In this document: positions 6,406 to 35,296 of the stretch, piece after piece
Position numbering within the stretch: position 1 is the stretch's first letter
Layout of the letters: every line of letters begins with the position of its first letter
NCBI RefSeq assembly: GCF_030652235.1
Contig: NZ_JAUSBA010000058.1
Span: 1 to 42,359, forward strand
DNA: 42,359 nt
From: Cypionkella sp.
GTDB taxonomy: Bacteria > Pseudomonadota > Alphaproteobacteria > Rhodobacterales > Rhodobacteraceae
Direction: 5' to 3'
Notes under the pieces: generated by a model
What the model saw: the letters and a program-made list of their open reading frames with translations, nothing else
Databases searched by the model: none
Told to the model about the DNA's origin: nothing
Translations under genes and position numbers: made by a program

Positions 6406-6972
6406 TTAGGAGATCGGGCAGGGCGTCGCGCTGACGCTTATGCAGGTGAAGAAGCGGGGGCGGGTGACCACGAACTGCTTGATCTCTTCATCATCCATGC
6501 CGACGTCGAAAGCCGGATGATAGCTGACCCATGTTTCGACGATGGTCACGAAATCACCCCCGGCCATCTTGGGGATGCGTGAGGCGTAAGTCTGTAGCGT
6601 GGTCGTGGTCAGTAGCGGCACTGCATTGTCCGGCGAGCGCGACCAGTGAACTTCGAAGCGGGCGTTGGCGTCAGACCAAGTGACGGAAGTGACGCGGATT
6701 CTGACGGTCTGATCGTTGTCAATCAGGTAGCGCATCAGATCGCGCATCCCGGTGATGTAGTTGGCGGGCAGGGTAATCATCTCACGAGAGATCATGTCCG
6801 AGATGGTATAGGCGGCCTTCTGCGAGGTGTTGACCGAGCGGAAGGCGTCCCAATAAACGAACAGCGCGAGGTAGGACCAGAGCATGAAAGGCAGCACGAT
6901 GATAGCCTCGGCCATCAGCACGCCGCTTTCGTCGCGGCCAAAACGGCGGAACATGTTACGAAGCGATTTCAT
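6406..6972 (-). CDS. TadE/TadF-like pilus assembly protein
   Basis: TadE-type proteins are pseudopilin-like membrane proteins of the tight-adherence (Flp pilus) system. The 188-residue product has a basic N-terminus, the motif RDESGVLMAEAIIVLPFML (about 13-31) that matches the TadE prepilin-like segment with a Glu after the hydrophobic start, one transmembrane helix, and a polar extracytoplasmic domain. The start ATG at 6972 has GAGGG 9 nt upstream. It lies 10 nt after the next TadE-like gene in the same operon. The C-terminus holds two Cys (TCISVSATPCPIS), a possible disulfide. Whether it is TadE or TadF cannot be decided here. Confidence 0.75.
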   Translation of the reverse strand: MKSLRNMFRRFGRDESGVLMAEAIIVLPFMLWSYLALFVYWDAFRSVNTSQKAAYTISDMISREMITLPANYITGMRDLMRYLIDNDQTVRIRVTSVTWSDANARFEVHWSRSPDNAVPLLTTTTLQTYASRIPKMAGGDFVTIVETWVSYHPAFDVGMDDEEIKQFVVTRPRFFTCISVSATPCPIS

Positions 6973-6982
6973 AGAGTTACCC

Positions 6983-7516
6983 TCAACTTGGTTCTACCGC
7001 AAAGGCCGAAGTCGAAATCACGCCATAGCCGCCGTGACCGTCTTTCGGCAGGCCAAGGCCGATACCTGTGGTGGGAAACAGCGCGTCTTGCACAACGCAG
7101 ACCCGTATCAACATGAGGTCATTCTGCTGGCCGATTACAAACGAGGTGACCGGCACAATGTCTTCTGAGCGGTCAATACAGGCGACGCCGGTGGTGGGCA
7201 GCGCCCAACCGGTGGTGGTGATCCGGGTCATCTCGATGGTGATGTTGGCCTGACAATCTTTGAAGATCACGGTGCGTTTGCAAATCTCGGTCTTCAGCAA
7301 GGCGGTGTCGGGCAGCGTGTAATGTCCCAAGCGCAACTCGCGCATCGTCATATCGACGGATTGTTCCAGCATGATCGAGCGGATCATCAGCAGACCAGCT
7401 TCAAACGAGGCCATGAAGATGGTGATCAAGAGCGGTACCGCAAGGACAAACTCCATCGCGGCGGTGCCGTCTTCGCGCCGAAACGCAGGACGGAGGCGTC
7501 TGAACCAGCGGATCAT
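6983..7516 (-). CDS. TadE-like pilus assembly protein
   Basis: The 177-residue product shows the TadE-like pattern FRREDGTAAMEFVLAVPLLITIFMASFEAGLLMIRS (residues about 13-48 as a segment: basic stretch, DGTAAMEF, hydrophobic helix), followed by an extracytoplasmic domain with several Cys (CKR, DCQ, ACID, CVV). It overlaps the upstream TadG-like gene by ATGA (7513-7516), so the two are translationally coupled, and it precedes the second TadE-like gene by 10 nt. Role inferred: minor pseudopilin or envelope component of a Tad pilus. No pilin, ATPase or secretin gene is visible nearby. Confidence 0.75.
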   Translation of the reverse strand: MIRWFRRLRPAFRREDGTAAMEFVLAVPLLITIFMASFEAGLLMIRSIMLEQSVDMTMRELRLGHYTLPDTALLKTEICKRTVIFKDCQANITIEMTRITTTGWALPTTGVACIDRSEDIVPVTSFVIGQQNDLMLIRVCVVQDALFPTTGIGLGLPKDGHGGYGVISTSAFAVEPS

Positions 7517-9195
7517 TGCGTCAACCTCAACTGGCTGATGTTGCTGGCAATAGCGCGGAACGCAGTGCGGATTTGCAGGCCCGAGGCGTTGAAATAATGC
7601 GCAGCCGAGGTCGAGCAGTTGCGAATCTGGGTCTGGCCGTTGGTCGGGGCTTCAAACGCGATGCCATAGACGATCACGCCCTGACCTTTGGCCAACCCAC
7701 AGATTTGTTGCAACTGGCTGTCCATCGTGGTGGTTGGGGTCTGGGTGCGCATTGCGGCCATCCGGTTGGCATATTCGATGTTGCGCGCCGAGCTGGTGCT
7801 GCCCAAGGCACGGGCGTAGAATTGCCATGCGACATAGCTGAGGCGCATCGAACTCCAGACCTGTTGCCATGATTGCTGTGTGGCCGTCAGCGTGTTGCTT
7901 GAGTTGGTCCATTTCACGGCTTGGAACCGGCTGAGATGGGGAACCCACCATTGGTTGCCGGAAACGCCGGTATGTTGAATCGAATAGTTGCCATCGACAT
8001 TGCTCTTCCAAATCGGAGACAACGTGGCGCCTTTATAGGCCGCGTTGACCCGTTCTTCGGCAAAATGCTCGCCATCGGTCATCAACACGATTACCTTCAT
8101 CGCCTCGGGATCGGTGAAGCTGTAGGGGCGCCCGCTGAGAGTGACGGCCATTTTGCCCGCGCCAATCAACTGGGTGTACATGGGGGCTGCCGAAGGGTCC
8201 ATCAGCGCCAAACCCCATTTCAACCCGGCATTGATCGAGGTGGCCCCAATCGCGGAAAGCCCGTTGATCTGGGTTTGCAGGGTTGAAATTGTCTCGGCGG
8301 GCAGGCGGATGATGTTGCCGGCAATCGGCGGGCACCAGACGTTCCCCGCGTTATTGGTGACATGGTAGCCGATGGCATAGTTGGTGTCGGTATAAGCCAC
8401 CCATGCGTTGGTCTGGTTGGTGCCGGAATAGGTGTCGGCGTGCGCGGTCATCGACATTGCGGTGTTGGTCGGCAGTGCCGTGGCATTGTAGACGGTGCTG
8501 GGCATATCCACGCATTGCACATTGGTCACGCCGGGATCATCGGTGAGGCCTGTGTATTTGGCGCGCAGGTCGGGGCCGATATTGACCTGACCGTTGAACG
8601 GCACCAGGCCGATCGAAATTTTGTGCTCGGCATCGCTGGACAGCACGGTGTCGACGAATTCATTGGCGGCGGTTTTCAGGTTGACCAGCTTGCTGTTGGA
8701 CGCCATCGAGCCCGACACATCGAGCACCAGCATGATCTCGACGTTGGTGACGCGCTGTTCGGCCATCGAATGGCCCAGTGCATCCAACTTGTCCTGACCA
8801 ATCAGATGCAGAAAATACGGATCAGTGGCGGCAGCGGCATCGGCGGTGACGTTGCGGAAGTTCATGCCCTCGGACACGATGACCCTTTTCAGGTATTTGT
8901 CCATCCCGGCCTTGGTGAAGTAATCTGCCACCACGGTCTTTGGGTCCAGTGTTTGGGTCAGCGCGGCCGATGCCAGCGTGGCGCGGTCAAGGGTGTTTTG
9001 CAGCGTGGTGCGGGTTTGTTCGTAGCGCATCAGATCAACCGCGAGGCCGCCCATCATCACCATCAGCAGGAACAGGGTGAGCGCCAGAATGGTCAGCGAA
9101 CCGTCTTGCGCCGCCCAAAAGCGTTTCAACACCGCAACGCGCGGTTTGGTTTGGCCGCAATCCTGATTTCCAACGTTCGCCATGAACATGGACAC
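7513..9195 (-). CDS. TadG-like protein with von Willebrand factor A domain (copy 1)
   Basis: The 560-residue product begins with a Tad_N-type segment (AAQDGSLTILALTLFLLMVMMGGLAVDLMRYE, one helix about 33-54, shown in part) and a large extracytoplasmic part carrying a VWA domain. The MIDAS motif DVSGSM is at about 159-164, with LMTDGEHFAEERVN further on. VWA domains bind metal and mediate protein contacts. The C-terminus (YGIAFEAPTNGQTQIRNCSTSAAHYFNA) is closely matched in the second copy upstream. Start is uncertain: GTG at 9195, ATG at 9189 (GGGG 7 nt before) or ATG at 9183. It overlaps the following TadE-like gene by 4 nt. Predicted envelope component of a Tad pilus. Confidence 0.82.
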   Translation of the reverse strand: MSMFMANVGNQDCGQTKPRVAVLKRFWAAQDGSLTILALTLFLLMVMMGGLAVDLMRYEQTRTTLQNTLDRATLASAALTQTLDPKTVVADYFTKAGMDKYLKRVIVSEGMNFRNVTADAAAATDPYFLHLIGQDKLDALGHSMAEQRVTNVEIMLVLDVSGSMASNSKLVNLKTAANEFVDTVLSSDAEHKISIGLVPFNGQVNIGPDLRAKYTGLTDDPGVTNVQCVDMPSTVYNATALPTNTAMSMTAHADTYSGTNQTNAWVAYTDTNYAIGYHVTNNAGNVWCPPIAGNIIRLPAETISTLQTQINGLSAIGATSINAGLKWGLALMDPSAAPMYTQLIGAGKMAVTLSGRPYSFTDPEAMKVIVLMTDGEHFAEERVNAAYKGATLSPIWKSNVDGNYSIQHTGVSGNQWWVPHLSRFQAVKWTNSSNTLTATQQSWQQVWSSMRLSYVAWQFYARALGSTSSARNIEYANRMAAMRTQTPTTTMDSQLQQICGLAKGQGVIVYGIAFEAPTNGQTQIRNCSTSAAHYFNASGLQIRTAFRAIASNISQLRLTQ

Positions 9196-9569: not shown

Positions 9570-11195
9570 TTATTGCGTCAGTTTCAACTGGGTCAGGTTC
9601 GAGGCGATGGTCCGAAACGCCGCCTGAATCTCGGCCCCGTTCTGCGCGTCGAAGTAATGTGCAGCCGAGGTGGCGCATTGCATGATCTGCGTTTTGCCAT
9701 TGCTGGGGGCTTCAAACGCGATGCCATAGACCAGCATGTTGTTCTGCTTGGCCTGCCCGCAGCTTTGTTGCAGCGAGGCATTCATGCCGCTGACCGAGTC
9801 ATAGGTCTGTACCATGTCGTTCATCTGGTTGGTGTAGATCGTGCTGCGCGCGGTGCTGCTGCTGCCCAAGGCGCGGGCGTAGAATTGCCAAGCGACATAG
9901 CTGACCTTCAAATTGGTCCAGACGGTTTCCCAGTTTTGCTGCGCACCGCCATTATAGGGGGTGGCCGACCATGTGCCCAAATGCGGCACCCAGTATTTGT
10001 TACCAGCATGTGCGGCCTGATACACCGAATAGTCCCCACCGCTGCTTTTGTAGATCGGCGACGGGCCAGTCTTATAGGTATTAGTGACGCGGTTGTGGGC
10101 AACATGCTCGCCATCGGTCATCAGCACGATGACTTTCATCGACTCGGGGTCGGTGTAATTGAACGGGCGGCCGGACAGGTTCGCGCCCATCTGGCCCGCG
10201 CCGATCAACTCAGTATACATGCCGCGCGCCGCAGGGTCGAGCAGCGATACGCCCCATTTCATCCCCAAAGTGATCGAGGTGTTGCCGCCTGCGACAAGGC
10301 CATTGATCTGGGATTTCAGGGTGGTGGCGTTCTGGCTGGGCAGGCGCACGATATTGGCAGGCTGCTTGGTGCAAAAGGCGGCAGCATAGTTCGGCAGCGC
10401 CGCGCTGGAGGTTGGCGAGACAGCGGCATTGGTCTGGCTGGTGTTATAGTTATGGTCGGCATAGGCCATCATCGGCAAATCGACATTGCGCGGGATGCCG
10501 GGGGCGCTGAACACCGACGTTGGCAGCTCTAGGCAGTTCACGTCGGCCACGCCATGCAGATTGACCGCCTGATACTTCGCCCGCAGCACCGAGCCGAGGT
10601 TAACCTGCGCATTGTAGGGCACGATCGTGATCGAAATGCGGTGATTGGGATCGTTGGCCAGCATGTTATCGACAAACTCGGCAGCGGCAATCTTGAGGTT
10701 GGCGATCTTGGCCCCAGTCATCGAGCCGGACACATCCAGCACCAGCGCGATTTCGACATTGGTGATGGCTTGTTCGGCCCCAGAGGTGCCAAGGGCGTCA
10801 AATTTGTTGATGCCGATCAGGTGCATGAAGAACGGCTTGGTATCGACGCGGCCCTTCGAGACGACGCTGCGCGAATTCAGCGCTTGCGTCACCAGCACGC
10901 TTTGAAGATCGGTGCCAAACCCGGCCTTGTCGACGCAATCCTTGACCACGGATTCAGGATCGAGTCTCTGGTCAAGACTGGCTGCCATCAGGGTGCAGCG
11001 ATCCAGCGTGTTTTGCAGGGCGGTGCGGGTCTGCTCATAGCGCATCATGTCGACGGCAAAGCCGCCCATCATCGCCATCAGCAAGAATAGCACCAGCGCG
11101 AAAATGATCAGCGAGCCGTCTTCCTCGCGCTGAAAGCGCTGGCTGTGATTAATCAGATTGCGCATCAGAGCGCGGGGGGAGGGGGCAAAAACCAC
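9570..11195 (-). CDS. TadG-like protein with von Willebrand factor A domain (copy 2)
   Basis: The 541-residue product is a tandem paralogue of the gene at 7513-9195. It has an N-terminal EEDGSLIIFALVLFLLM segment with one membrane helix (about 26-48), then MRYEQTRTALQNTLDR, the MIDAS motif DVSGSM (about 154-159), LMTDGEHVAHNRV, and the shared C-terminal pattern ending in NLTQLKLTQ. The start is a GTG at 11195 with AAAGGA 9 nt upstream; ATG at 11165 is an alternative. A gap of 374 nt and a hairpin at 9540 separate it from copy 1, so the two copies may be transcribed separately. The 9196-9539 gap holds no gene I can support. Confidence 0.82.
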   Translation of the reverse strand: MVFAPSPRALMRNLINHSQRFQREEDGSLIIFALVLFLLMAMMGGFAVDMMRYEQTRTALQNTLDRCTLMAASLDQRLDPESVVKDCVDKAGFGTDLQSVLVTQALNSRSVVSKGRVDTKPFFMHLIGINKFDALGTSGAEQAITNVEIALVLDVSGSMTGAKIANLKIAAAEFVDNMLANDPNHRISITIVPYNAQVNLGSVLRAKYQAVNLHGVADVNCLELPTSVFSAPGIPRNVDLPMMAYADHNYNTSQTNAAVSPTSSAALPNYAAAFCTKQPANIVRLPSQNATTLKSQINGLVAGGNTSITLGMKWGVSLLDPAARGMYTELIGAGQMGANLSGRPFNYTDPESMKVIVLMTDGEHVAHNRVTNTYKTGPSPIYKSSGGDYSVYQAAHAGNKYWVPHLGTWSATPYNGGAQQNWETVWTNLKVSYVAWQFYARALGSSSTARSTIYTNQMNDMVQTYDSVSGMNASLQQSCGQAKQNNMLVYGIAFEAPSNGKTQIMQCATSAAHYFDAQNGAEIQAAFRTIASNLTQLKLTQ

Positions 11196-11562
11196 GGTCT
11201 ATTTTCCTTTACAAGCCACATCGGATGCTGCCCCCGCAAACACACCGTTTCGCCTTTTTGCTGCCCAGAAGTTATGGCAAAATTGTGGCAACATGGGCAG
11301 GCAGGGGGCATTGTGGGGGGGCTGGAAACACTGGTAATGCAGATATTTTACTGTGGCGAAACCGACGACAGTATACTTTCGTATAGGTTGTACGGGCAGC
11401 CACACTATCGCCCAAATTGTACAATTTCGAATCACTTTTGGTCAAAAGCGGCTCAAATCTGCCTACATTGTTTGCTGGTTTATTAAGCAAACGGCAGTAG
11501 GTGTTGAGGGAGCGTAAAACGCGCTCTGCCGGGTGAGAGACGGCATTTTGGGAGGAATGAGC
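11196..11562. other. intergenic region between divergent tadG-like and gdh genes
   Basis: This 367-bp stretch separates divergently read genes and must hold both promoters. It is AT-richer than its surroundings, especially 11340-11490, and contains one GAATC (GANTC) site near 11430 and a small imperfect hairpin (GAGCG...CGCTC) at about 11511-11526 in the gdh leader. I see no RNA gene or regulator motif that I can name. Confidence 0.5.
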
Positions 11563-24344: not shown

Positions 24345-27300
24345 TTAACTCCACATGAAATCCATCGTGCTGAGTTGCCCGGCGTTTGTCAGGCCGCTTA
24401 CGGTGATGAGGATATCCGCCGTACCGTCGCCGTTCACGTCGACCTGCACCCGCGTTCCAACAAACCTTGCCTCGGAATTGTCCGACCCACCCGAAAACGC
24501 AGCATCCCCCATATAGGCGAAGGTGCCGATCAACAGCCCGTTAAACTCGAAGACATCGCCTTGGTCCGCACCACCCGACAGCGCGCTGAAATCGGTGATC
24601 GTGTCGACGCCATTGCCGTTGGCCATGGTGAAGACGAAGTGGTCGGCACCCGCGCCGCCCGTCAGCGTGTCGTTGCCTGCGTTTCCGGTCAGCGAGTCAT
24701 CGCCTGCCAGTCCAAGCAAGCGATTGGCCGCACCATTGCCGGTGATGGCGTTGGCCTGCGCATTTCCCGTGCCGCTGGAGGCTGTTGATCCGGACAGCAT
24801 CAGGTCTTCAAACCCGCTGCCGAGCGTCCAGTTGACCGAACTTGTGACAAGATCTGTACCTTCATCGGCAAATTCAAACAGCATATCCAAGACGGAGTCG
24901 ACAGTATAGCTGTCATTGCCCAAGCCGCCGATCATCGTATCGCGCCCGGCAAGGCCCGACAGTAGGTTATCAGCCGTGTTTCCAATCAGCAGGTTGCTTG
25001 CCGCGTTGCCGATGGCGTTGATCGCCGCTTGTCCGGTGAGGGTCAGATTTTCGACATTGGCCGCCAGTGTCAGGCTGACCGAGGACAGCACGGCGTCGGT
25101 CCCGCCATAGGCAGCCTCGGTTACGCTGTCGAAGGTCGTATCGACAACATAGGTGTCGTCGCCATTGCCGCCCTTCATGGTGTCCGCACCAAGACCGCCA
25201 TCCAATGTGTCGTTGCCGCCGCCGCCCGTCAGCGTGTCATTCCCGGCCATCCCGAACAACGCGTTGTCGCCCGTGTTGCCGTAGATCAGGTTGGCTTCGG
25301 AATTGCCGATGCCGTTCAAATTATCTGTACCATCAAGGATCAGCGTTTCAAAGTTGCTGCCCAAGGTCCAGTCCACGACCGCGATCACTGTATCGGTGCC
25401 GCTCGCGGTTTGGTCGGTCAGCACATCGCCAAGGCTATCGACATAATAGGTATCGTTGCCTGTGCCGCCTTGCATATTGTCGTCGCCAGCACCGCCATCC
25501 AGCGTATCCGCGCCGTCTGCACCCAAAAGGGTATCATCGCCCCGCATGCCCCAAAGATGGTTTGAGCCGTTGTTGCCGACCAGCAGGTTATCGCTGGCAG
25601 AACCGGTTGCATCCAGTGCAGCAGAGCCGATCAGGATAAGGGATTCGATATTATCGCCAAGGGTGTAGCTGACCGAGGTTACGACCGTATCAAAGCCACC
25701 GTTGTAAAGTTCGACCACCAAATCGTTGCCCGAGTCGACGTGGTAGGTGTCATCGCCCAGACCGCCGCGCATGGTGTCTGCCCCTAAGCCGCCATCTAAA
25801 CTGTCATTCCCGGCGCTGCCGATGAGGGTGTTGTCCTGCGTGTTGCCCGTCCCGGTAAAGCCGGCCACACCCATGGCCACAAGCGTTTCAAGGTTGGCGC
25901 CCAGCGTATAGCTGGCAAGCGTGGTGAGAACCGTGTCCAAGCCGCCATAGGCATCTTCGGTCACGGTATCACCCGCAGACTCAACGCTATAGGTGTCATC
26001 GCCCGGCCCGCCAGCCATCATGTCGTCGCCACTGCCACCGTCGAGCGACTCAGCCCCGAAATTGCCCAGCAGCGTGTCGTTGCCCGCCCCGCCGATCAGG
26101 GTGTCGTTGCCCTGAAGATCGGCACAAGGGCTCCAACTTGGGCCTTCAATCACCACCATAACGACGCAGTCAGTTCCACCACTTACCAGCAGATCATCGC
26201 CGTCACCGCCCAGCAAACTGTCGGTGCCGTTGCCGCCGTAAAGCGTATCATCTCCGGGGCCACCGGCTAGAGTATCGTCGCCATCATTGCCCAGCAGCAG
26301 GTCATTTCCCGCGCCTCCCAGCACAGTGTCTGGGCCTTCGGTGCCCGAAAACACACCGTTGATTGGTGTGTCTTCGGGGGGATGGTCGGTTGGGGTGATA
26401 TCAACGGTGAAACTGCCCAGCGTGACAGCGCCATCGCAATCACCGGCAGTGACGGTGACTGCGGCAGCTGCGTCGCCCACCGCATCCAAAGCGCCCATGT
26501 AAAGGATGTTGGTCATGGCGTTGAGATAGCTGTCAATATCCTCTGCCGCGCCTGTCAGGGAGATGGCATCTGAGCCAGAGTTGCTGACTGTCACGCCATC
26601 ATGGCTTTCGGCGTTGAGTGTGCCTGCCGTGGCGCTGACCACGACGGTCAGATCCTCGCAACAATCCGAGTTCGAGACGGTCAGCGACGATAAATCCAGC
26701 GCCGAGGCGGTATCTTCCACCACGCTCAGATGTGTCGGGGCAGGGGGAGGGGCCACTTCAACGGCGATATCGGTGATCTGTTCGATGTTGCTGAAGGACA
26801 GGCTTTCGGTGGTGCGCTGCCCCTGTGCATCCAGCCGATAGACGGTGCCATTTTCGCCGTTCAGGGGGTCGTAGACGATTTCATATGGCCCGATGCCGTG
26901 CAGGTTAAGCGTGTCAAGATCGGAACCGCCTTCGCCTCCGTCAATCACATCGCCAATACCGCCAAGGATCAGGTCAGAGCCTGCGCCGGCTGCGACATGA
27001 TCCTGTCCCGCACCTGCGTCGATGGTGTCATCGCCACCGCCCGTCGCCAGCCAATCATCGCCTGATCCGCTGCGCAGGTTGAATGTCTCAATACCCGCAA
27101 AGGTGGCAACGCCCAAGCCCGAGACGTTTCCGGCGTATCCAGCGCTGTAGGTGCCCGCAAGCGCGCTGATCACGACAGGGCCAGTCGCTGCGGAAAAATC
27201 GACGATCAGCACGTCTGATCCAGCGCCGCCCGCGATGCCATCTGTGCCACCGTTGATGGTAATGCTGTCGTCGCCCGCGCCCGCATCGACGGTGTCGATG

Positions 27301-28532
27301 TCAACGCCGGTGATGATGGTGTCGTCTCCGGCCCCGGTTGCGATGGTGTTGGCCCCGTTGCCCGCCGCGATGTAATTGCCGCCATCGGATGTCGCGATGG
27401 TGTCTGCGCCGTTACCGCTGATGATGGTGTTGTGGCCCGAGGTGGCGGTGATGGTGTTGGCGCCATCCCCGGCATGGATGGTGTTGTTGCCGCTGGTCAC
27501 AGTGATGGTGTCGGCACCACTGCCCGTGACGATGGTGTTGTTGCCAGAGGTCGCGGTGACGGTGTTTGCGCCCTCGCCCACACAGATCGCGTTGTTGCCC
27601 GAGGTGACGGTGACGGTATCGGCCCCAGCCCCCGCCGTGATGATATTGTTGCCGGACGTCGCGGTGATGGTGTTGGCACCGCCCTCGGCCCGGATCACAT
27701 TGTGGCCCGAGGTCAGCGTGATGGTATCAGCCCCGTCACCCGCCCAGATTTTGCTGTTGCCCGAAGTGCCGGTGATCGTATTGGCCCCAGCCCCGGCGTG
27801 GACCGTGTTGTTGCCGGTGGTGAAGGTGATGGTATCGGCACCCGCAGCGGCGGTGATGATCTTGTCGCCGCCGAGGCCCGTGATGGTATTTGCCCCGTCG
27901 CCTGCCATGATGATGTCGCGACCGCCCCCCACGGTGATGGTATCAGCGCCAGCCCCCGTGATCACCGTGTTGTCGCCGTCGCCCGCCGCGATGGTGTTGG
28001 CGCTGGACCCGGCGGTTTCGATGCGGTCATCGCCAGCGCCGGTGGTCAATGTATTGATGCCCGATCCGGCCAGAATGGTGAAATGTTCAATCGTTCCGGC
28101 AGTGACCGTGACCAAGCCTGCATCGGCGGCGGCAAAGCCGCTGTCTGACGAGCCGTTCATTGCAGCCGTTGCAGAATGATAGTCGATGACAAGGCGATCA
28201 TCGCCCAAACCGCCATCGACGTGATCCGTGCCACCCGTCACCGTGATCAGATTATCGCCCGCGTTGCCGCTGATCACGTTCCCCGATCCAGCGTCCAACA
28301 CGTTGATCGAAGCGGTTCCGGCCAGATGCAGGTTGGCAACCCCCGGCGCAAGGTGCAGATGAATGCCCGACGATAAAGCACCCGCATCAATTGTTATGTT
28401 GTCTTGGGTGATTGTGGCGATCTCGTTGCTGTAGCCAGCCTGCAACATGATGGTATCGCCCGGAAAAGCTGCAGCCATTGCCGCTTGAATCGTCTGGTAC
28501 GCAGACGTCGGTCCAACAGTGAGGATTGTCAT
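24345..28532 (-). CDS. large secreted RTX-type calcium-binding repeat protein (1395 aa)
   Basis: There is no N-terminal signal peptide. Residues 1-160 form a conserved opening (YQTIQAAMAAAFPGDTIML). Residues about 160-430 are 18-residue tandem repeats alternating GADTITVTSGNNTIHAGD-like and GANTITATSGNNTI-like units. About 430-590 is a conserved module (DTLNLHGIGPYEIVYDPLNG). About 600-715 is a beta-rich domain. From about 728 on there are classic nonapeptides (GGAGNDLLLGNDGDDTLAGG) and several longer units of the LGANLETLVA...DNTLIGSAGNDSLDGG type. The C-terminal 90 residues (GADHFVFTMANGNGVDTITD) match the end module of type I secretion substrates. ATG 28532 has AAAGG upstream. Predicted role: calcium-folded surface or matrix protein exported by a type I system encoded elsewhere. 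It is a paralogue of the next gene over residues 1-585. Confidence 0.85.
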   Translation of the reverse strand: MTILTVGPTSAYQTIQAAMAAAFPGDTIMLQAGYSNEIATITQDNITIDAGALSSGIHLHLAPGVANLHLAGTASINVLDAGSGNVISGNAGDNLITVTGGTDHVDGGLGDDRLVIDYHSATAAMNGSSDSGFAAADAGLVTVTAGTIEHFTILAGSGINTLTTGAGDDRIETAGSSANTIAAGDGDNTVITGAGADTITVGGGRDIIMAGDGANTITGLGGDKIITAAAGADTITFTTGNNTVHAGAGANTITGTSGNSKIWAGDGADTITLTSGHNVIRAEGGANTITATSGNNIITAGAGADTVTVTSGNNAICVGEGANTVTATSGNNTIVTGSGADTITVTSGNNTIHAGDGANTITATSGHNTIISGNGADTIATSDGGNYIAAGNGANTIATGAGDDTIITGVDIDTVDAGAGDDSITINGGTDGIAGGAGSDVLIVDFSAATGPVVISALAGTYSAGYAGNVSGLGVATFAGIETFNLRSGSGDDWLATGGGDDTIDAGAGQDHVAAGAGSDLILGGIGDVIDGGEGGSDLDTLNLHGIGPYEIVYDPLNGENGTVYRLDAQGQRTTESLSFSNIEQITDIAVEVAPPPAPTHLSVVEDTASALDLSSLTVSNSDCCEDLTVVVSATAGTLNAESHDGVTVSNSGSDAISLTGAAEDIDSYLNAMTNILYMGALDAVGDAAAAVTVTAGDCDGAVTLGSFTVDITPTDHPPEDTPINGVFSGTEGPDTVLGGAGNDLLLGNDGDDTLAGGPGDDTLYGGNGTDSLLGGDGDDLLVSGGTDCVVMVVIEGPSWSPCADLQGNDTLIGGAGNDTLLGNFGAESLDGGSGDDMMAGGPGDDTYSVESAGDTVTEDAYGGLDTVLTTLASYTLGANLETLVAMGVAGFTGTGNTQDNTLIGSAGNDSLDGGLGADTMRGGLGDDTYHVDSGNDLVVELYNGGFDTVVTSVSYTLGDNIESLILIGSAALDATGSASDNLLVGNNGSNHLWGMRGDDTLLGADGADTLDGGAGDDNMQGGTGNDTYYVDSLGDVLTDQTASGTDTVIAVVDWTLGSNFETLILDGTDNLNGIGNSEANLIYGNTGDNALFGMAGNDTLTGGGGNDTLDGGLGADTMKGGNGDDTYVVDTTFDSVTEAAYGGTDAVLSSVSLTLAANVENLTLTGQAAINAIGNAASNLLIGNTADNLLSGLAGRDTMIGGLGNDSYTVDSVLDMLFEFADEGTDLVTSSVNWTLGSGFEDLMLSGSTASSGTGNAQANAITGNGAANRLLGLAGDDSLTGNAGNDTLTGGAGADHFVFTMANGNGVDTITDFSALSGGADQGDVFEFNGLLIGTFAYMGDAAFSGGSDNSEARFVGTRVQVDVNGDGTADILITVSGLTNAGQLSTMDFMWS

Positions 28533-28691: not shown

Positions 28692-30830
28692 CTAGGCCGC
28701 CAGCAAGACGAGCGCCTCATGGGCTTTCAGCGTAAGTCGCGCCGCGTCAAACTCTGCGAAGCGATTCGCGTCAGAAAGCTCGGGAAAGATTGCCGCCAGT
28801 TCTTGCCGCTGGTCGGCATCGATCCCAGCCAGGGTGCGATCCCCGGGCTGAAAACTTTCGCTCCATGCGCCATCGGCAAGCACAATCTCGTGCTGATCGA
28901 ACATGATATGTATGTAAGTCACCGACTCTAAATAGACTTCCTCGATGCCGGGAAGCGAAACAAGATGCTTTGCCCGGACCAAGACTTCATGGGTATCAAA
29001 CAGCAGTTCGGCTCTTGGACTGGACACCATCATGCGATGCTGACGCGATACCAGCATATCGCGGTTGGGGGTGTCGTTGCCAAAGGCCCCGCGCTGAATT
29101 GAGATCGGTTGCAGCGCAGCATCTGCCGCGAGCAGCGCGCTCGATAGGCGCTTGATTCCGACCCACACAATAGGTCTGAAGCCGTGATCCAGCGTCAGCA
29201 CCAGATCGCCCGCCTTCAGAGTCTCGATCGCATGTGCACCCTGAGGTGTGGCAATCAATGTACCGGGTGTGAAACAGGCGACGATGTTCTCAACATTGGT
29301 GAAGGACAGAGTTTCGCCGGTTCTTCCTCCTTCTGCATTCAGCAGATAGACGGTGCCGTTTTCGCCATTCATTGGATCATAGTCGATTTCGTAGCGCCCG
29401 ATGCCGTATAGGTTGAGCGTGTCAAAGTCTGTTCCGGTCTCACCCCCGTCAATCTCATCGCCGACGCTGCCATAAATCAGGTCAGCCCCCCCCCCGGCAT
29501 GAACGTGATCCGCGCCTGCGCCGGTATTGATGGTGTCATTGCCACCCCCGGTGTAGATTAAATCGTCGCCGCTGCCCGTTCTGATATCGAACGTTTCAAT
29601 TCCCGCGTAGGTAACCGTTCCAGTAACACCCTTGGTAAAGGCACCTGCATACCCGGTGTCCAAAATGCCCACGGGTATCGTGCTTATGACGTCTGTCGTC
29701 GCGTTGGCGTAATCAACCACAAGTGTGTCATTGCCCACGCCGCCTGCAACCCCGTCTGTGCCGCCCCTTACCGTGATGCTATCGTCGCCTGCACCAGTGA
29801 AGATGGTGTCGGTATCGGTACCGGAAATAATGGTGTCATTTCCAGAGCTTGCGGTGATTGTGTTGGCGCCATTGCCGGCATCGATGTAGTTGCCGCCGCT
29901 CGTCACGGCGATGGTGTCAACACCAGTACCGCCGTAAATGGTGTTGTTGCCCGAGGTGGCTGTGATCGTATTGGCACCATCCCCCGCATAAATTATGTTT
30001 GTGCCAGAGGTCACGGTGATCGTATCGACACCACTGCCAGCGTGGATAATGTTATTGCCACGGACGGCTGTGATCGTATTGGCGCCTTCGCCCGCGAAGA
30101 TGTTGTTGTTACCATCCGTCACGGTGATGGTATCGGCCCCGGCACCCGTGACGATAAGTTTATCCCCACCAATCCCCGTGATGGTGTTGGCGCCTTCGCC
30201 CGCGTTGATGATATCGTTACCGCTACCGACGGTGATCGTATCGACACCGGCACCGGTTTTTACGGTATTGTTGCCTTCGCCCGCATCGATCAGGTTGTCG
30301 CCGGCCCCCGCAGTTTCAATATAGTCATTTCCCGCACCTGTGGTCAGCGTGTTAGAGCCTGACCCGGCAAGAACGGTGAAATGTTCAATACTGCCCGGCG
30401 TCGTGGTGACAGAGCCAGTGCCGAGTGCCGCGAACCCGGTGGTCGCGGTGCCAATCACCGAGTTAGTTGCGGTGTGATAGTCAATGACCAGGCGATCATC
30501 GCCCAAGCCGCCATTGACCACATCGAGTCCACCCGTCACGGTGATCACGTTATCGCCCGCATTTCCGGTGATCGTATTGCTTGACGTGTTGTCCACCACG
30601 TCGATTGCGCCGGTTCCGGTCAGCTGCACATTTGCGATTCCCGTCGCAAGCTTCAAATGAATACCCGCTGACAAAGCCCCCGAATCGACGGTGATGTTGC
30701 TTTTGGTGATCGTCGCGGTTTCATTGCTGTAACCCACCGCCAACTTGATCGTATCGCCGGGCAAGGCCGCAACCAGTGCGGCTTGAATTGTCGGGTAGGT
30801 GGAAAGCAGTCCAACGGTCAAGGTTGCCAT
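28692..30830 (-). CDS. RTX-like repeat protein with C-terminal Hint domain (712 aa)
   Basis: Residues 1-515 parallel the neighbouring 1395-aa protein almost position by position: the YPTIQAALVAALPGDTIKL opening, 18-residue repeats from about 160 to 358, and the module DTLNLYGIGRYEIDYDPMNG. At about 518 it switches to a Hint (hedgehog/intein) domain: ACFTPGTLIATPQG supplies the Cys that starts such domains, followed by VLTLDHGFRPIVWVG, SRQHRMMV and VYLESVTYIHIMFDQHEIVLADG. Hint domains can cleave and ligate protein; in roseobacter RTX proteins of this type they sit at the C-terminus with unproven function. I chose ATG 30830 (MATLTVGLLS), which has AAGGA upstream and matches the paralogue's start. 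An upstream Met at 30866 is less likely. Confidence 0.85.
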   Translation of the reverse strand: MATLTVGLLSTYPTIQAALVAALPGDTIKLAVGYSNETATITKSNITVDSGALSAGIHLKLATGIANVQLTGTGAIDVVDNTSSNTITGNAGDNVITVTGGLDVVNGGLGDDRLVIDYHTATNSVIGTATTGFAALGTGSVTTTPGSIEHFTVLAGSGSNTLTTGAGNDYIETAGAGDNLIDAGEGNNTVKTGAGVDTITVGSGNDIINAGEGANTITGIGGDKLIVTGAGADTITVTDGNNNIFAGEGANTITAVRGNNIIHAGSGVDTITVTSGTNIIYAGDGANTITATSGNNTIYGGTGVDTIAVTSGGNYIDAGNGANTITASSGNDTIISGTDTDTIFTGAGDDSITVRGGTDGVAGGVGNDTLVVDYANATTDVISTIPVGILDTGYAGAFTKGVTGTVTYAGIETFDIRTGSGDDLIYTGGGNDTINTGAGADHVHAGGGADLIYGSVGDEIDGGETGTDFDTLNLYGIGRYEIDYDPMNGENGTVYLLNAEGGRTGETLSFTNVENIVACFTPGTLIATPQGAHAIETLKAGDLVLTLDHGFRPIVWVGIKRLSSALLAADAALQPISIQRGAFGNDTPNRDMLVSRQHRMMVSSPRAELLFDTHEVLVRAKHLVSLPGIEEVYLESVTYIHIMFDQHEIVLADGAWSESFQPGDRTLAGIDADQRQELAAIFPELSDANRFAEFDAARLTLKAHEALVLLAA

Positions 30831-31276
30831 TTTTATTCCTTCAGCGACGGCGGGACGTGACTTCACATCCGGGCCAAGCGCGGTACTTGTTAATTTCTAT
30901 GGATTTTATCGGTCGGTCAGACAGGTTTCTTGTGCCGTACCTGACCGTTTGCGGGCATGCGCCGCATCTTGGCGCTATGCGCGTTGCGTCAGCTGAATGG
31001 TCGACGCCACATTGCAAACCAGTGTAAGCAATACCTATCGTGCTCTGCCCCGAGTAAGGGCAGGTGTTTCAGATGCCTTTTGGCTTTCATAAAATGCCTG
31101 TTGGTCGATCACCCCAGGTCCGCCACCCAGAGTAAATTTGTTGCCCAATTTTTACTAGCATGCGGTAGTGCCAAACGGCGTGGCGCAAAGGCATAACCGG
31201 CGCTATCTTCCGCGTGAGAGGCTGTGCCAAAGATAGTGAGGTCTCGGGTTTTTGACGATCAGACCGCTGCAGGGCC
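30831..31276. other. intergenic region upstream of the Hint-RTX gene
   Basis: These 446 bp lie between the end of the histidine kinase gene and the start of the Hint-RTX gene, both on the minus strand. The part next to 30830 must hold the RTX promoter; 30885-30920 is AT-rich and is the likeliest place. I find no gene, tRNA or clear repeat. Because the gap is long, the RTX genes are probably transcribed separately from the kinase. Confidence 0.4.
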
Positions 31277-33877
31277 TTAGGTGTTTGCACCAACCAGCAG
31301 TGGAAATGGTGTCTCAAACCACTCGTCCGTGTCTTGTTTGGCCGCGATGGCCGCATCCAGCAGCGTGGCAATTGCCATGTACTGGCCGGCCCTTATCGCA
31401 TCCTCAAGCGCGCAAAGCAGCTTATACAACCGATGCGCCCCAATCACTGCGACTGACCCGGCGGCTTGGTGCATTTGCGTGGCCAGCGCATCGTCCAAGG
31501 GCGCATCGCGGGCGCTGATCAAGGCAAGGTTTGCATCGCTCAGGGCAGTATGCACCAACGCCAGAAAATCATCGCGTTGTAACACAGCCTGCATGTCGCG
31601 CAGACTTTCAACGGCGATCAGCGGGTGTGGGTTGTCCTGCGCAGTCGCAGGCGCAGGAGGAGGCGCAGAGGCCAAACCCTGCAAATGGATCGCCAATGCA
31701 GCCGAGGTGATCGGTTTGACCCGTGTGCAGTTCATTCCAGCCGCTATGAACCGCGCGAAGTCTTGCGGCATGGCATTGGCGGTCACCCCCATGATCGGAA
31801 CCTTGGCCGAGGCCCCACTGGCGCGAATCAACCGCGTGGCTTCCAAACCGTTCATTTCCGGCATGTTGATATCCATCAGGATCAAGTCGAACTGGCGCTG
31901 AGCTGCGACTTTGACGGCGACCGCCCCATCACTCGCCAATTCGACGCTATGCCCCAGCCGCTTTAGCATTTGTTCCAGCAGCAATCGGTTCACCACGTTG
32001 TCATCCACCACCAGCACAGTCAGCGGCGAAACCGATGCCTCATCCTGCGCCGCCTCGACGCGATCAACGGGTATGAGCGGTGCGATGCTTTGCGGAATGT
32101 CGAACCAGAAGCGGCTGCCGTTTCCGAAGGTGCTTTCAAGCTGCAATGTGCCGCCCATTAAATCGACGGCACGGCGCACGATACCCAACCCAAGACCCGA
32201 TGCGCCAAAGGATTCCAGCCTCGGATCGGCCACGGTCACAAAATCATCAAAAATGCGGGTCAGGTGCTGGGGTTCAATGCCAATCCCTGTATCGCGCACT
32301 TCAACCCGCATTTTCCCCACCATGTCAGGCGTCGGGAAAATCCGTACAGTGATCGTGCCCTGTTTGGTGAATTTGATCGCGTTGCCCACCAGATTGGCCA
32401 ATGCGCTGCGAAACGCGCGGCGATTGCCCAGCATCGGCCCCGACAAAGCGGGGTCGAAATCAAGCGACAGCAAGGTAGTATTGGCAGATGCAAGGTACTG
32501 CATCTGATCCACGATTAACTTTGCAAGCTCGACTGGAAAAAATGTCAACACCACACCCGGAACATCTGCCGCATCGTCCGAGGCCAGTTGCAGCACCTCT
32601 TCAATCTGCTCAAGCGCGGCACCCGCGCAATCCCGTGCAATTTTTCGCAATGGCCGTCTTTGTGCGTCCGTGGTAGTCCCACCCAAAAGGTCGATTGCCG
32701 CGATGACGCCATGCAACGGCGTGCGCATTTCGTGGCTCATCACCGCCAGAAAGCGCGCGTTGGCGGCAGCCCTGCGTTCGGCTTCAAGCCGCGCCGCCCG
32801 TTGTATTGCATCGGCCTCGACCAGTTTTGTGATATCGCGCAGAAAGGCGAGGAAGATCGGCTTGCCGTCGACGTCCACATCCGAAGCGATGGCAACCTCT
32901 GCCATGAAATCAGAGCCGTCGCTTTTTTGCAGCGTCAGACGCACCCGACCCTTGTTGGCCGAACGTACCAGGTTTGCTGCTATCTGCCGCCCGCTCAGTT
33001 GGCCCTTTCGCTGGGCACGATCGTCGCGGTGCAACAGGTTTTCGACAAGATCGCCCTTCACCTCGGCAAGGCTGTGGCCAAACATGGTTTCAGCCGCCGT
33101 GTTAAAGCTGCTGATCCGGCCAGAAACATCGGTGATGATCACCGCATCCAGCGATGTTTCGATCGCTTTGGTTAAATTCGCGCTGATGCGGGCGAAATCC
33201 ACAGTGCGCCGCGTCAACAACGAAGATTGCCGCAGCACGAACACCGCGATGCCCCCCAACAAGATGGCGGCGCCTTGGGTCAGCACCATCAGCCATTTCA
33301 GCACAAGCACGCGGTTCGAGAATTCTGTCGTGTCGTTGCGCACGATCCCGTCAAGGGTGTCCATAGCGTTCTGCCGCAAAACTGGTAAAATTAACTCGGC
33401 CTCGGCCAAAAGCCTCCGAAAATAATCGGCGTTCTGCCCCGCACTGTTGTCAACAAGCGGCGCAAGCTCGCGCAGATGGGCCTCGATCTTGGACATCCCC
33501 AGACGCAGCGCAAGTCGTTTATTATCTTCAATGCGAAAGTAGTTTATGCGCGCCGAAACGATGCTGATGCGCCTAAAATAAATGTCAAAACTGTTGACAA
33601 CCGCGGCAATGGCGTTGGGCCTGCTGGCCAAAGGCGCATCAACAGCGTTGTGCGTTGCCAGAAGAAAGCGTTGAAACTCGACTTCCAGTTGCGACACGGT
33701 CCAGATGGAATTGTCGAATCGACCGGACTTCAGAGCATCCATCTTTTTCATGACAACCAGGGCTGTCAGCTCTAACCCAATGATCCCTACTATAATGAGG
33801 GCCGCAGTGAAGTTGCCCAGACCGCGGTTGGTTACGTTTTTTCTTAACCAAGCCCAAATTGGGATCGTGATGCGCAT
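31277..33877 (-). CDS. hybrid sensor histidine kinase (TM-periplasmic-TM-PAS-HisKA-HATPase-REC-HPt)
   Basis: The 866-residue protein has helices at about 23-43 and 196-215 that flank a roughly 150-residue helical periplasmic domain. A PAS domain (about 235-350, ETSLDAVIITDVSGRISSFN) is followed by HisKA (FLAVMSHEMRTPLHG, His382), HATPase_c (N box LVGNAIKF, G1 DTGIGI, G2 GASGLGLGI), a receiver domain (VVDDN, phospho-Asp669 in LMDINMPEMNG, Lys721) and an HPt-like domain (His803 in MHQAAGSVAVIG). All residues for a His-Asp-His relay are present, so it should phosphorylate a separate response regulator. Its ATG (33877) directly follows the TAA of the SUOX-fold gene (TAAATG), so the two are co-translated. 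That protein is the natural candidate ligand-binding partner for the periplasmic domain. Confidence 0.93.
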   Translation of the reverse strand: MRITIPIWAWLRKNVTNRGLGNFTAALIIVGIIGLELTALVVMKKMDALKSGRFDNSIWTVSQLEVEFQRFLLATHNAVDAPLASRPNAIAAVVNSFDIYFRRISIVSARINYFRIEDNKRLALRLGMSKIEAHLRELAPLVDNSAGQNADYFRRLLAEAELILPVLRQNAMDTLDGIVRNDTTEFSNRVLVLKWLMVLTQGAAILLGGIAVFVLRQSSLLTRRTVDFARISANLTKAIETSLDAVIITDVSGRISSFNTAAETMFGHSLAEVKGDLVENLLHRDDRAQRKGQLSGRQIAANLVRSANKGRVRLTLQKSDGSDFMAEVAIASDVDVDGKPIFLAFLRDITKLVEADAIQRAARLEAERRAAANARFLAVMSHEMRTPLHGVIAAIDLLGGTTTDAQRRPLRKIARDCAGAALEQIEEVLQLASDDAADVPGVVLTFFPVELAKLIVDQMQYLASANTTLLSLDFDPALSGPMLGNRRAFRSALANLVGNAIKFTKQGTITVRIFPTPDMVGKMRVEVRDTGIGIEPQHLTRIFDDFVTVADPRLESFGASGLGLGIVRRAVDLMGGTLQLESTFGNGSRFWFDIPQSIAPLIPVDRVEAAQDEASVSPLTVLVVDDNVVNRLLLEQMLKRLGHSVELASDGAVAVKVAAQRQFDLILMDINMPEMNGLEATRLIRASGASAKVPIMGVTANAMPQDFARFIAAGMNCTRVKPITSAALAIHLQGLASAPPPAPATAQDNPHPLIAVESLRDMQAVLQRDDFLALVHTALSDANLALISARDAPLDDALATQMHQAAGSVAVIGAHRLYKLLCALEDAIRAGQYMAIATLLDAAIAAKQDTDEWFETPFPLLVGANT

Positions 33878-34393
33878 TTATGGGGCGTTCACACGCAACT
33901 GGATCAGTTGCCACACGCTTTGTGAGTAAATCAGATCGTTTCTGTATTTTTCATATGAATCAAATGGGTAGATCAGCCAAATTGGCCCCGACTCGCGCAG
34001 CGAAAATGGCAGGCCGTTCTTGCGTGTCGCCAGAATCGGATAAGATGCATCTACAGTGTCAGGCGAAAGCGCGATGCTGTATTCGTTGGCGGCAATGGCC
34101 GTGATCTGCCCTGGCTCGGCTTCGATCGAATCCAGCACCGACATCAGAGTAGGGCCCGAAAAAGATACCATACCTTCGGTCCAGATTGTGGTGGTGCTAA
34201 AGCTGGTTTGTGGCAAAGCGTCCAGCATGGCAAGGTCAAACTGGGCTGTCGTGCCTGCGTTTCGCCGATGGATGGCGCCATCTGCTTCCAACAGCACCGT
34301 GCCCTGCGGCATCGCAAGGGCGGGCGTCTGTGCCAAAGCCGAGATCGGCACCCAACAGGCAAGTGAAGCCACAAATGTACGCCTTGATATCAT
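33878..34393 (-). CDS. exported SUOX-fold (PruR-like) putative pterin-binding protein
   Basis: The 171-residue product has a signal peptide (MISRRTFVASLACWVPISALAQ; cleavage expected after Ala-Gln 22) and a mature domain resembling the molybdopterin-binding core of sulfite oxidases. Recognisable parts are FSGPTLMSVLDSI, AANEYSIALSPDTV, YPILATRKNG and GPIWLIYPFDSYEKYRND. The catalytic Cys of true sulfite oxidases is not seen. PruR of Agrobacterium tumefaciens is a periplasmic protein of this type that binds pterins and controls the membrane protein DcpA. Here the gene is fused in translation with a hybrid kinase. ATG 34393 follows GGAAAGGG; a frame extension to 34456 is not needed. The pterin-binding role is inferred from family likeness. 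Alternatively it could bind another ligand. Confidence 0.7.
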   Translation of the reverse strand: MISRRTFVASLACWVPISALAQTPALAMPQGTVLLEADGAIHRRNAGTTAQFDLAMLDALPQTSFSTTTIWTEGMVSFSGPTLMSVLDSIEAEPGQITAIAANEYSIALSPDTVDASYPILATRKNGLPFSLRESGPIWLIYPFDSYEKYRNDLIYSQSVWQLIQLRVNAP

Positions 34394-34478
34394 TCGATAT
34401 GCCCTTTCCACGGCCAAACGACACATTGACCTCTCTATCGCATGACGCGCGTGCATGAAATACAGCAGAGTTGATAGT

Positions 34479-34552
34479 TATACTTTAGATAGATTGGCGC
34501 AGGGTCATATACTTTAGTAACTGATCTATGTTGTTGCATATCCTATGGATAT
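34479..34552. promoter_or_regulatory. direct repeats and palindrome between the sensor genes and the response regulator
   Basis: The divergent gap (34394-34642) holds two copies of TATACTTTAG (34479-34488 and 34508-34517, 29 bp apart) and a 15-bp palindrome ATATCCTATGGATAT (34538-34552). The gap is AT-rich compared with both genes. These are candidate promoter elements or binding sites for the LuxR-type regulator, whose gene starts 90 bp further on. Confidence 0.4.
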
Positions 34553-34642
34553 CATGCGAATTCATTGGAATGTGCCAGTGCCAGAAGGTCATGTAAGTGT
34601 GCCAAAAACAAGAAAAATGTGCAGAGAAAGCCGCACCTTCGT

Positions 34643-35296
34643 ATGGAAAAATCACACACCCACTCCACAGTTTCCGTTCTGATTGCGGATGATCACGACC
34701 TTGTGCGGGACGCATTGGCGCAGGCTCTGTCGTTCGATAAACGGTTTTCCGTAACCACAGCAGACAGCTACATGGCGGCTTTGGCCGCAATCTCTAAACT
34801 TGGCAAAGTCGATGTGCTGTTGTTGGATATCGTCATGCCGGGGATGAATGGGCTGAAAAGCATCGAGGATTTCGTCAAGGTGAACGCCGACGGCGCGGTT
34901 GTGGTGTTTTCGGGCAATATCGCTCCTGACTTTATCACGCAGGCCTTGGCGCTGGGGGCACGCGGTTTCATCCCAAAGACGCTGCCGCTAAAATCGCTTG
35001 CGACAGCGATCCATCTGATAGCCTCGGGGCAGATTTTTGTGCCCTTCGTCGCATATAGCCCGCCAAAAGAGCCGGAAATCGAAGATCTGGAGCGCCTATC
35101 ACTCAAGGAACTGCGCATCCTGAACCACGTCTCTGACGGTCTGACCAACAAAGAAATTGCTTGGAAAGTTGATGTTGCAGAAGTGACCGTGAAAATGCAC
35201 ATGCGGTCGATTTGCACAAAACTGAAAGCAAAAAACCGTGCCCATGCGGCAATTATCGCCGCGCAGAATGGGCTGTTGCTGCACAACACCTTTTAG
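34643..35296 (+). CDS. LuxR/NarL-type response regulator
   Basis: The 217-residue product has a receiver domain (VLIADDHDLVRDALAQAL, phospho-Asp62 in LLLDIVMPGMNGL, Lys112 in FIPKT) and a C-terminal LuxR helix-turn-helix (LSLKELRILNHVSDGLTNKEIA, then VTVKMHMRSICTKLKAKNR). It is transcribed away from the SUOX-fold/hybrid kinase pair, so it is the probable output of that relay. ATG 34643 (MEKSHTHSTVSVLIADDH) is preferred because the receiver fold begins directly after it; a frame extension to 34565 is Cys/Lys-rich and unconvincing. Its target genes are not shown by sequence; the adjacent RTX genes are candidates. Confidence 0.9.
   Translation: MEKSHTHSTVSVLIADDHDLVRDALAQALSFDKRFSVTTADSYMAALAAISKLGKVDVLLLDIVMPGMNGLKSIEDFVKVNADGAVVVFSGNIAPDFITQALALGARGFIPKTLPLKSLATAIHLIASGQIFVPFVAYSPPKEPEIEDLERLSLKELRILNHVSDGLTNKEIAWKVDVAEVTVKMHMRSICTKLKAKNRAHAAIIAAQNGLLLHNTF

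Follow-up and report, generated by a model that had tools for sequence, protein, structure and literature searches.

The described signalling systems closest to the locus analysed here are TorT-TorS-TorR, the NosP-NahK and H-NOX-linked hybrid kinases, PruR-DcpA and the PruR-DTB systems. The locus lies in a 42,359-nucleotide stretch of Cypionkella sp. DNA (contig NZ_JAUSBA010000058.1; 'the window' throughout) and encodes a PruR-like protein, a hybrid histidine kinase and a divergent LuxR-type regulator. In TorT-TorS-TorR, a periplasmic protein acts through a kinase with REC and HPt domains on a regulator, and NosP-NahK and H-NOX-linked hybrid kinases use haem-type sensors. In Agrobacterium tumefaciens, PruR-DcpA is a two-gene operon in which the partner of PruR has a periplasmic WX7E domain and a GGDEF/EAL output. 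Sensor kinases linked to PruR have already been named 'PruR-DTB' systems, with WP_011045932.1 of R. pomeroyi figured (PMC13259868, a 2026 review, section 8). The review's treatment of these kinases makes no mention of cognate regulators, HPt domains or operators and leaves their outputs open, and it names NosP-NahK in passing (PMC13259868).

By its sequence, the window locus is of the PruR-DTB type, a published kind. It shares with the R. pomeroyi system figured in the review (PMC13259868) a PruR-type gene directly upstream of the kinase, a DcpA-type periplasmic domain, WX7E and the order PAS-HisKA-HATPase-REC. The window locus has an HPt domain in addition, and its LuxR-type regulator, transcribed divergently, comes with an operator-like site. 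The first-pass annotation of the window had presented a kinase or phosphorelay output for a PruR sensor as new; that novelty falls away with the publication of PruR-DTB. The locus resembles PruR-DcpA in PruR, the two-gene operon and the periplasmic WX7E domain, whereas its output is a kinase and not GGDEF/EAL, neither of which gave a Pfam match in the window kinase. It resembles TorT-TorS-TorR in combining a periplasmic protein, a REC-HPt kinase and a regulator, and TorS is the closest NCBIfam model for the kinase (E 7.5e-77); however, the score of 259.3 bits is below the cut-off of 676.5, PruR is not TorT and the window regulator is LuxR-type. NosP-NahK and H-NOX systems are alike in that FIST or H-NOX kinases adjoin the same regulator clade and palindrome in related genomes, but they have haem-type sensors, no PruR and no DcpA-type domain (against the near_NosP_CTERM model the window kinase gives E 1e-31, also below cut-off). 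Compared with the review's section on DTB kinases, our analysis adds the pairing of HPt with a LuxR-type regulator, the palindrome, a likely polysaccharide link and a possible exchange of sensors. The features of the locus are as follows.

33878-34393, minus strand: predicted PruR-like periplasmic pterin-binding protein (171 amino acids (aa); signal peptide by eye; SUOX fold; Trp/Asn/Tyr/Trp pterin-site residues kept)
31277-33877, minus strand: DTB-type hybrid histidine kinase (866 aa; transmembrane segment, periplasmic helical domain, transmembrane segment, PAS, HisKA, HATPase, REC, HPt; Pfam)
33293-33748, minus strand: periplasmic DcpA-type domain, kinase residues 44-195 (predicted four-helix bundle)
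33677-33703, minus strand: WX7E motif, W59-E67, of the PruR-partner periplasmic domain (from sequence)
32732-32734, minus strand: His382, putative autophosphorylation site of HisKA
31871-31873, minus strand: Asp669 of the kinase REC, putative relay step
31469-31471, minus strand: His803 of HPt, putative relay step
34643-35296, plus strand: divergent NarL/LuxR-type response regulator (217 aa from ATG 34643; REC and GerE by Pfam; Asp62 at 34826-34828)
34479-34491, no strand: operator-like site A, TATACTTTAGATA (canonical palindrome minus one base)
34507-34522, no strand: operator-like site B, ATATACTTTAGTAACT (position weight matrix (PWM) score 9.5)

We consider it probable that this locus is a PruR-DTB pterin-sensing phosphorelay acting through the divergent LuxR-type regulator at palindromic sites. 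PruR would bind reduced pterin in the periplasm and report, through a putative contact at the WX7E face, to the helical domain that the kinase has in this compartment. Phosphate would then pass from His382 to Asp669, His803 and finally Asp62 of the divergent regulator. The regulator may bind palindromic sites in the stretch that separates its gene from pruR, which would amount to autoregulation, and in relatives could also act at polysaccharide operons. Such a relay would lead to the attached state through transcription, where PruR-DcpA works through c-di-GMP.

The locus of PruR-like protein, hybrid kinase and divergent regulator is confirmed as observed by the first-pass annotation. All three genes are present; the TAA of the PruR-like gene (33880-33878) immediately precedes the ATG of the kinase (33877), which is in frame with it, giving the reported coupling; the DcpA-type periplasmic domain, REC, HPt and W59-E67 were found in the kinase, with HPt under the Pfam cut-off; and the divergent gene, a recurrent divergent neighbour in relatives, carries REC and GerE. 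The arrangement is not a chance one: the window PruR has matches in 219 of 394 family genomes (E <= 1e-8), and the arrangement recurs in relatives. We refer to the family as Rhodobacteraceae, to which the named relatives (Phaeobacter, Ruegeria, Thioclava, Yoonia and others) belong. The window's own genome (4.8 Mb, 76 contigs) holds one match to the window PruR.

The 171-aa protein is firmly assigned as PruR-like from its structure matches, modelled fold and retained pocket residues, in keeping with the SUOX-fold, PruR-like identity first proposed. It matched 7kos by phmmer at E 3.5e-25, together with 7rkb, 7kom and 7kp2, and the titles of the matched entries name PruR of Agrobacterium, Klebsiella and Vibrio; it had no match in Pfam or NCBIfam. 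In a model built from a 23-row alignment within a fused PruR-kinase model, the PruR part superposes on 7kos at 1.4 A root-mean-square deviation over 144 columns (TM-score 0.91 by target length), with 7rkb, 7kom and 7kp2 as the next-best structural matches, and identity to A. tumefaciens PruR in the fold alignment is 36-37%. W49, N81, Y83 and W139 are invariant in all 23 rows of alignment A2, in which 23 of 29 PruR rows were aligned. The pocket residues described for PruR are Asn102, Tyr104 and Trp160 in A. tumefaciens numbering, a Trp replacing the molybdenum cofactor (Moco) cysteine, and the spacing in A2 equals that given for these three residues (PMC13259868). The Trp of the window protein taken to replace the Moco Cys is a putative assignment, and the window PruR is predicted to bind pterin. 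Read by eye, the protein begins with an N-terminal secretion signal, MISRRTFVASLACWVPISALAQ, including a twin-arginine-like start, MISRRTF. An in-frame ATG further upstream, at 34456, would give a 192-aa protein; the 171-aa start is favoured because the operator-like sites at 34479-34522 and the MISRRTF start fit it.

Pfam places PAS at residues 237-349 of the kinase, a domain missing from the earlier description, followed by HisKA at 373-436 (His382), HATPase at 485-596, REC at 621-729 (Asp669) and HPt at 769-841 (His803). The periplasmic part is predicted by AlphaFold2 as four helices (residues 30-183; predicted local distance difference test 88.3). Within the WX7E stretch, all 27 rows of alignment A1 keep the Glu and one inner Gln, and the Trp is replaced by Tyr in L003.

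To survey the neighbours of PruR homologues, as the first-pass annotation had suggested, we drew loci from 29 stretches found by pattern, 80 around PruR matches from the list (the top 60 apart from the window's own, and 20 chosen as second copies, odd frames and others) and 8 around kinase matches in the genus, calling frames with a codon-usage score. After removal of four duplicates, 112 PruR rows including the window remained (97 Rhodobacteraceae-type and 15 Rhizobiales), which are not a random sample of loci; the 97 rows represent 96 loci, as L060, with an interrupted pruR, counts twice. Among the genus kinase stretches, L146 and L147 lack PruR and the periplasmic domain and L142 has the kinase only. 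A partner with the periplasmic domain occurs in 88 of the 97 Rhodobacteraceae-type rows, and 76 of these 88 partners carry HPt. The 12 HPt-less partner rows include two cut short (L027, L030), split frames (L060 twice, L063, L138), a short protein with a GGDEF-type motif (L108) and five full frames (L070, L105, L131, L136, L137). Nine of the 97 rows have no partner by the distance rule, although L069, L099 and L121 do have a kinase, hidden by an overlong frame call. Of the other six, L029, L119, L132, L135 and L095 are described below, and the PruR of L005 stands alone.

A REC-GerE gene lies within 3 kb of 70 of the 76 HPt-bearing partner kinases, and in 54 Rhodobacteraceae-type rows it is divergent and adjacent. 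This constancy, and the shared palindrome between regulator and pruR, argue against the rival that survives best, which we nevertheless rate unlikely: that the sensor is of the PruR-DTB type while HPt feeds another regulator, for example one reaching c-di-GMP, the divergent gene being a mere neighbour or not the only target. Speaking for that rival, 6 of the 76 HPt kinases are without a REC-GerE gene at this distance, and outputs do change: in all 15 Rhizobiales rows the kinase lacks HPt and there is no REC-GerE gene, and REC-HD homologues lie downstream in 14 of 15 (Pfam for L018; in two frames in L008), with an HD-GYP motif in 9 of the 9 checked. For modules with no REC-GerE gene nearby, regulators were found elsewhere in the genome at E <= 1e-30 in G053 (four), G142 (one) and G041 (weak, 37%), and no clade regulator was found in G376 at that threshold. 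In G229, one PruR module has no regulator within 6 kb, and the single clade regulator (E <= 1e-30) adjoins the FIST operon of that genome; regulator sharing would fit this arrangement, although G229 also carries a second PruR match.

An expectation-maximization search of 55 regulator-pruR intergenic regions, with the start of the REC coding region of the regulator masked in the PWM search, returned the palindrome CTATnCnnnnGnATAG. It exceeds the 99th percentile of shuffle maxima in 41 of the 55 regions, on which the matrix was itself trained. A genome-wide count, a test independent of this training set, gave 143 matches to CTATMCNWWNGKATAG in 103 of 394 genomes versus 37 in 35 for the reversed palindrome. 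The 219 PruR-bearing genomes contain 127 palindrome and 19 control matches, and the 175 PruR-less genomes 16 and 18 (Fisher p 2e-6); the palindrome is over-represented only in PruR-bearing genomes. Across the 42 matches computed, it lies 82-229 bp upstream of the point where the listed PruR match begins; this point does not always coincide with the start codon. In the window, site B scores 9.5 and 99% of shuffle maxima are below 9.25. TATACTTTAG, bases 2-11 of CTATACTTTAGTATAG and a pattern picked post hoc after inspection, occurs exactly twice in the 42-kb window, both times in the regulator-pruR intergenic region and 29 bp apart.

The same site and regulator also occur apart from PruR. Eleven genomes with no PruR match carry the exact site. 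Seven of these have a regulator that shares 57-64% identity with a PruR-module regulator, and the other four have none or only distant ones (up to 36%). The seven were found through the motif, so that the site is present by selection and the regulator and its position are not. G385, G153, G049, G194 and G018 have FIST-hybrid kinase-regulator operons, and a globin gene is close by. G021 has an H-NOX (HNOB)-kinase-regulator operon, and in G199 FIST-kinase and kinase-regulator occupy opposite ends of a single, perhaps circular, contig. The palindrome stands directly ahead of the called start of the FIST or H-NOX frame or, in some of these genomes, slightly within it. By N-terminal resemblance, RTX-like, UDP-glucose-dehydrogenase-like or exopolysaccharide (EPS)-like genes are near in five of the seven (not G194 or G021). 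PruR-bearing G257, G244, G229 and G361 also have FIST operons with a clade regulator. In a quick-method tree of 92 regulators, those linked to PruR, FIST and H-NOX group together against six other LuxR-type regulators (Shimodaira-Hasegawa-like approximate likelihood ratio test 100); the FIST/H-NOX label requires five changes, at least two forced by well supported branches. These arrangements suggest that pterin and nitric oxide-type inputs may be interchangeable on one regulator and site.

That the palindrome belongs to another factor, which controls the module, is a still less likely alternative: the site is degenerate in the window's branch despite the presence of the regulator there, yet seven of the eleven site-bearing PruR-less genomes have the 57-64% identical regulator in the same neighbourhood, and PruR-less genomes as a whole show no enrichment over control. 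Least likely, and improbable in view of the kept pterin-site residues and the pruR-kinase coupling in 88 of 97 rows, is a window PruR that is vestigial or binds another ligand, with the kinase sensing something else directly through its four-helix domain.

Returning to the phosphorelay reading, we inspected 101 distinct palindrome sites for candidate targets, the choice favouring places away from pruR. The gene downstream is pruR for 14 of them, the regulator alone for 2, a polysaccharide gene for 12 and a FIST gene for 5. The polysaccharide genes comprise a Wzx/export pair, PS_pyruv_trans, Wzc-like, GalU, WecG/Bac_transf and HlyD-type genes, and 3 of the 12 sites are shared with the promoter of the regulator; assignments are by Pfam on representatives, except for the Wzc-like gene (resemblance only) and a 421-aa neighbour with no Pfam match. 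An EPS or RTX gene lies within 7.2 kb in 22 of 73 module loci versus 1 of 20 control stretches from 20 module genomes (p 0.015; L060 counted once, or 23 of 74 if twice), and in 5 of 16 module loci when only the control genomes are considered. EPS alone gives 20 of 73 versus 0 of 20 (p 0.004), with a reference set drawn from module neighbourhoods and thus biased towards modules. A link between the palindrome and surface-polysaccharide genes in relatives is likely from these data.

Several observations weigh against the phosphorelay reading or its reach. Within the locus, the HPt match is at E 0.0015, and the fused PruR-kinase model (predicted template modelling score 0.61) folds each part while placing them relative to each other without confidence; among partner kinases, split frames included, strict W-X7-E is present in 73 of 103. 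The window regulator falls in a divergent branch, nearest to L060 (73%), where intergenic sites are weak: 9.5 in the window, 5.0 in L062 and below 3 in L060, L063, L065, L104 and L116. The site is degenerate in the window's own branch, and with up to two mismatches it is not enriched in the window's own genome (28 versus 87 control). Of the inspected sites, 47 of 101 stand before other genes and 21 have no gene start within 450 bp; the majority of module loci (51 of 73) lack EPS or RTX genes in their vicinity; and the best-scoring window site, at 11371-11386, has no counterpart upstream of 8 of the 9 full-length orthologues in the genus (L310-L317). Module constancy, operator, polysaccharide link and sensor exchange are computational results, clearer for the family than for the window.

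For the family, we tentatively propose a broader arrangement, which we hold to be possible and somewhat short of probable. In Rhodobacteraceae, one LuxR-type regulator clade and its palindromic operator would form a fixed output for surface polysaccharide (perhaps RTX) genes, with an interchangeable sensor: PruR-DTB for periplasmic pterins in most genomes, FIST (NosP-like) or H-NOX hybrid kinases for NO/haem-type sensing in others, and sometimes both in the same genome. The window would represent a divergent branch, and in rhizobia the same pterin sensor, having lost or never had HPt, would address a REC-HD-GYP c-di-GMP enzyme. By title and abstract, the papers listed on FIST/NosP or H-NOX, LuxR, exopolysaccharide or biofilm and Roseobacter hybrid kinases do not describe this link. 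Given a named operator, a partner regulator and candidate targets among polysaccharide genes, what pterin-sensing kinases control can be tested directly. If the alternate pairing with FIST and H-NOX kinases is true, pterins and nitric oxide, two redox-linked signals, would converge on a single attachment programme in this widespread marine family.

Other settings of the module components were seen in relatives. PruR homologues without a kinase partner adjoin a SelO-like gene in L029, L119, L132 and L135 (Pfam for L135, N-terminal resemblance for the others), perhaps a second, non-signalling setting for PruR-type proteins. L095 has PruR, the divergent regulator and a canonical operator-like site; where the kinase would be expected stands a frame of 820 aa whose N-terminus resembles metal ATPases. 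In L060 (G381:C2), the closest relative of the window (PruR 58% identical), pruR (6956-7516) contains an in-frame TAG and the kinase frame stops before a separate HPt frame; the module looks decayed from its sequence. The palindrome also lies by an NYN-domain gene and folK in L166 (site 1501; Pfam) and L252 (site 3001; by resemblance); folK encodes HPPK (6-hydroxymethyl-7,8-dihydropterin pyrophosphokinase), a pterin enzyme. In L204, L228 and L241 it lies upstream of a frame with an RluD-like segment (by resemblance).

Two neighbouring genes are linked to the locus by position, the first of them as a possible surface target.

28692-30866, minus strand: RTX repeat protein with Hint domain (Pfam; positional link only)
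24345-28532, minus strand: RTX repeat protein, 1395 aa (Pfam; positional link only)

Neither was retained as a direct target: no operator-like site lies upstream of them, none of the 12 best-scoring window sites being placed there. The window's own genome has no FIST match. Its one exact palindrome site (G000:C1:11182) stands before a 130-aa protein with no Pfam match, with a glycosyltransferase-family gene nearby on the other strand. Site 11371-11386 (PWM 18.2) precedes a Tad-type pilus gene and is flanked on its opposite side by a glutamate-dehydrogenase-like gene. In its nearest orthologue (L309, from G004, 93%) the site is weaker (10.2) at about the same spacing, and G004 has no kinase match at E <= 1e-60. 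Given its poor conservation in the genus, we set this site aside as chance or drift. The window positions 9570-11195 and 7513-9195, on the minus strand, encode two Tad/VWA pilus-like proteins, related and in tandem (the first assigned by Pfam), which are present in most genomes of the genus.

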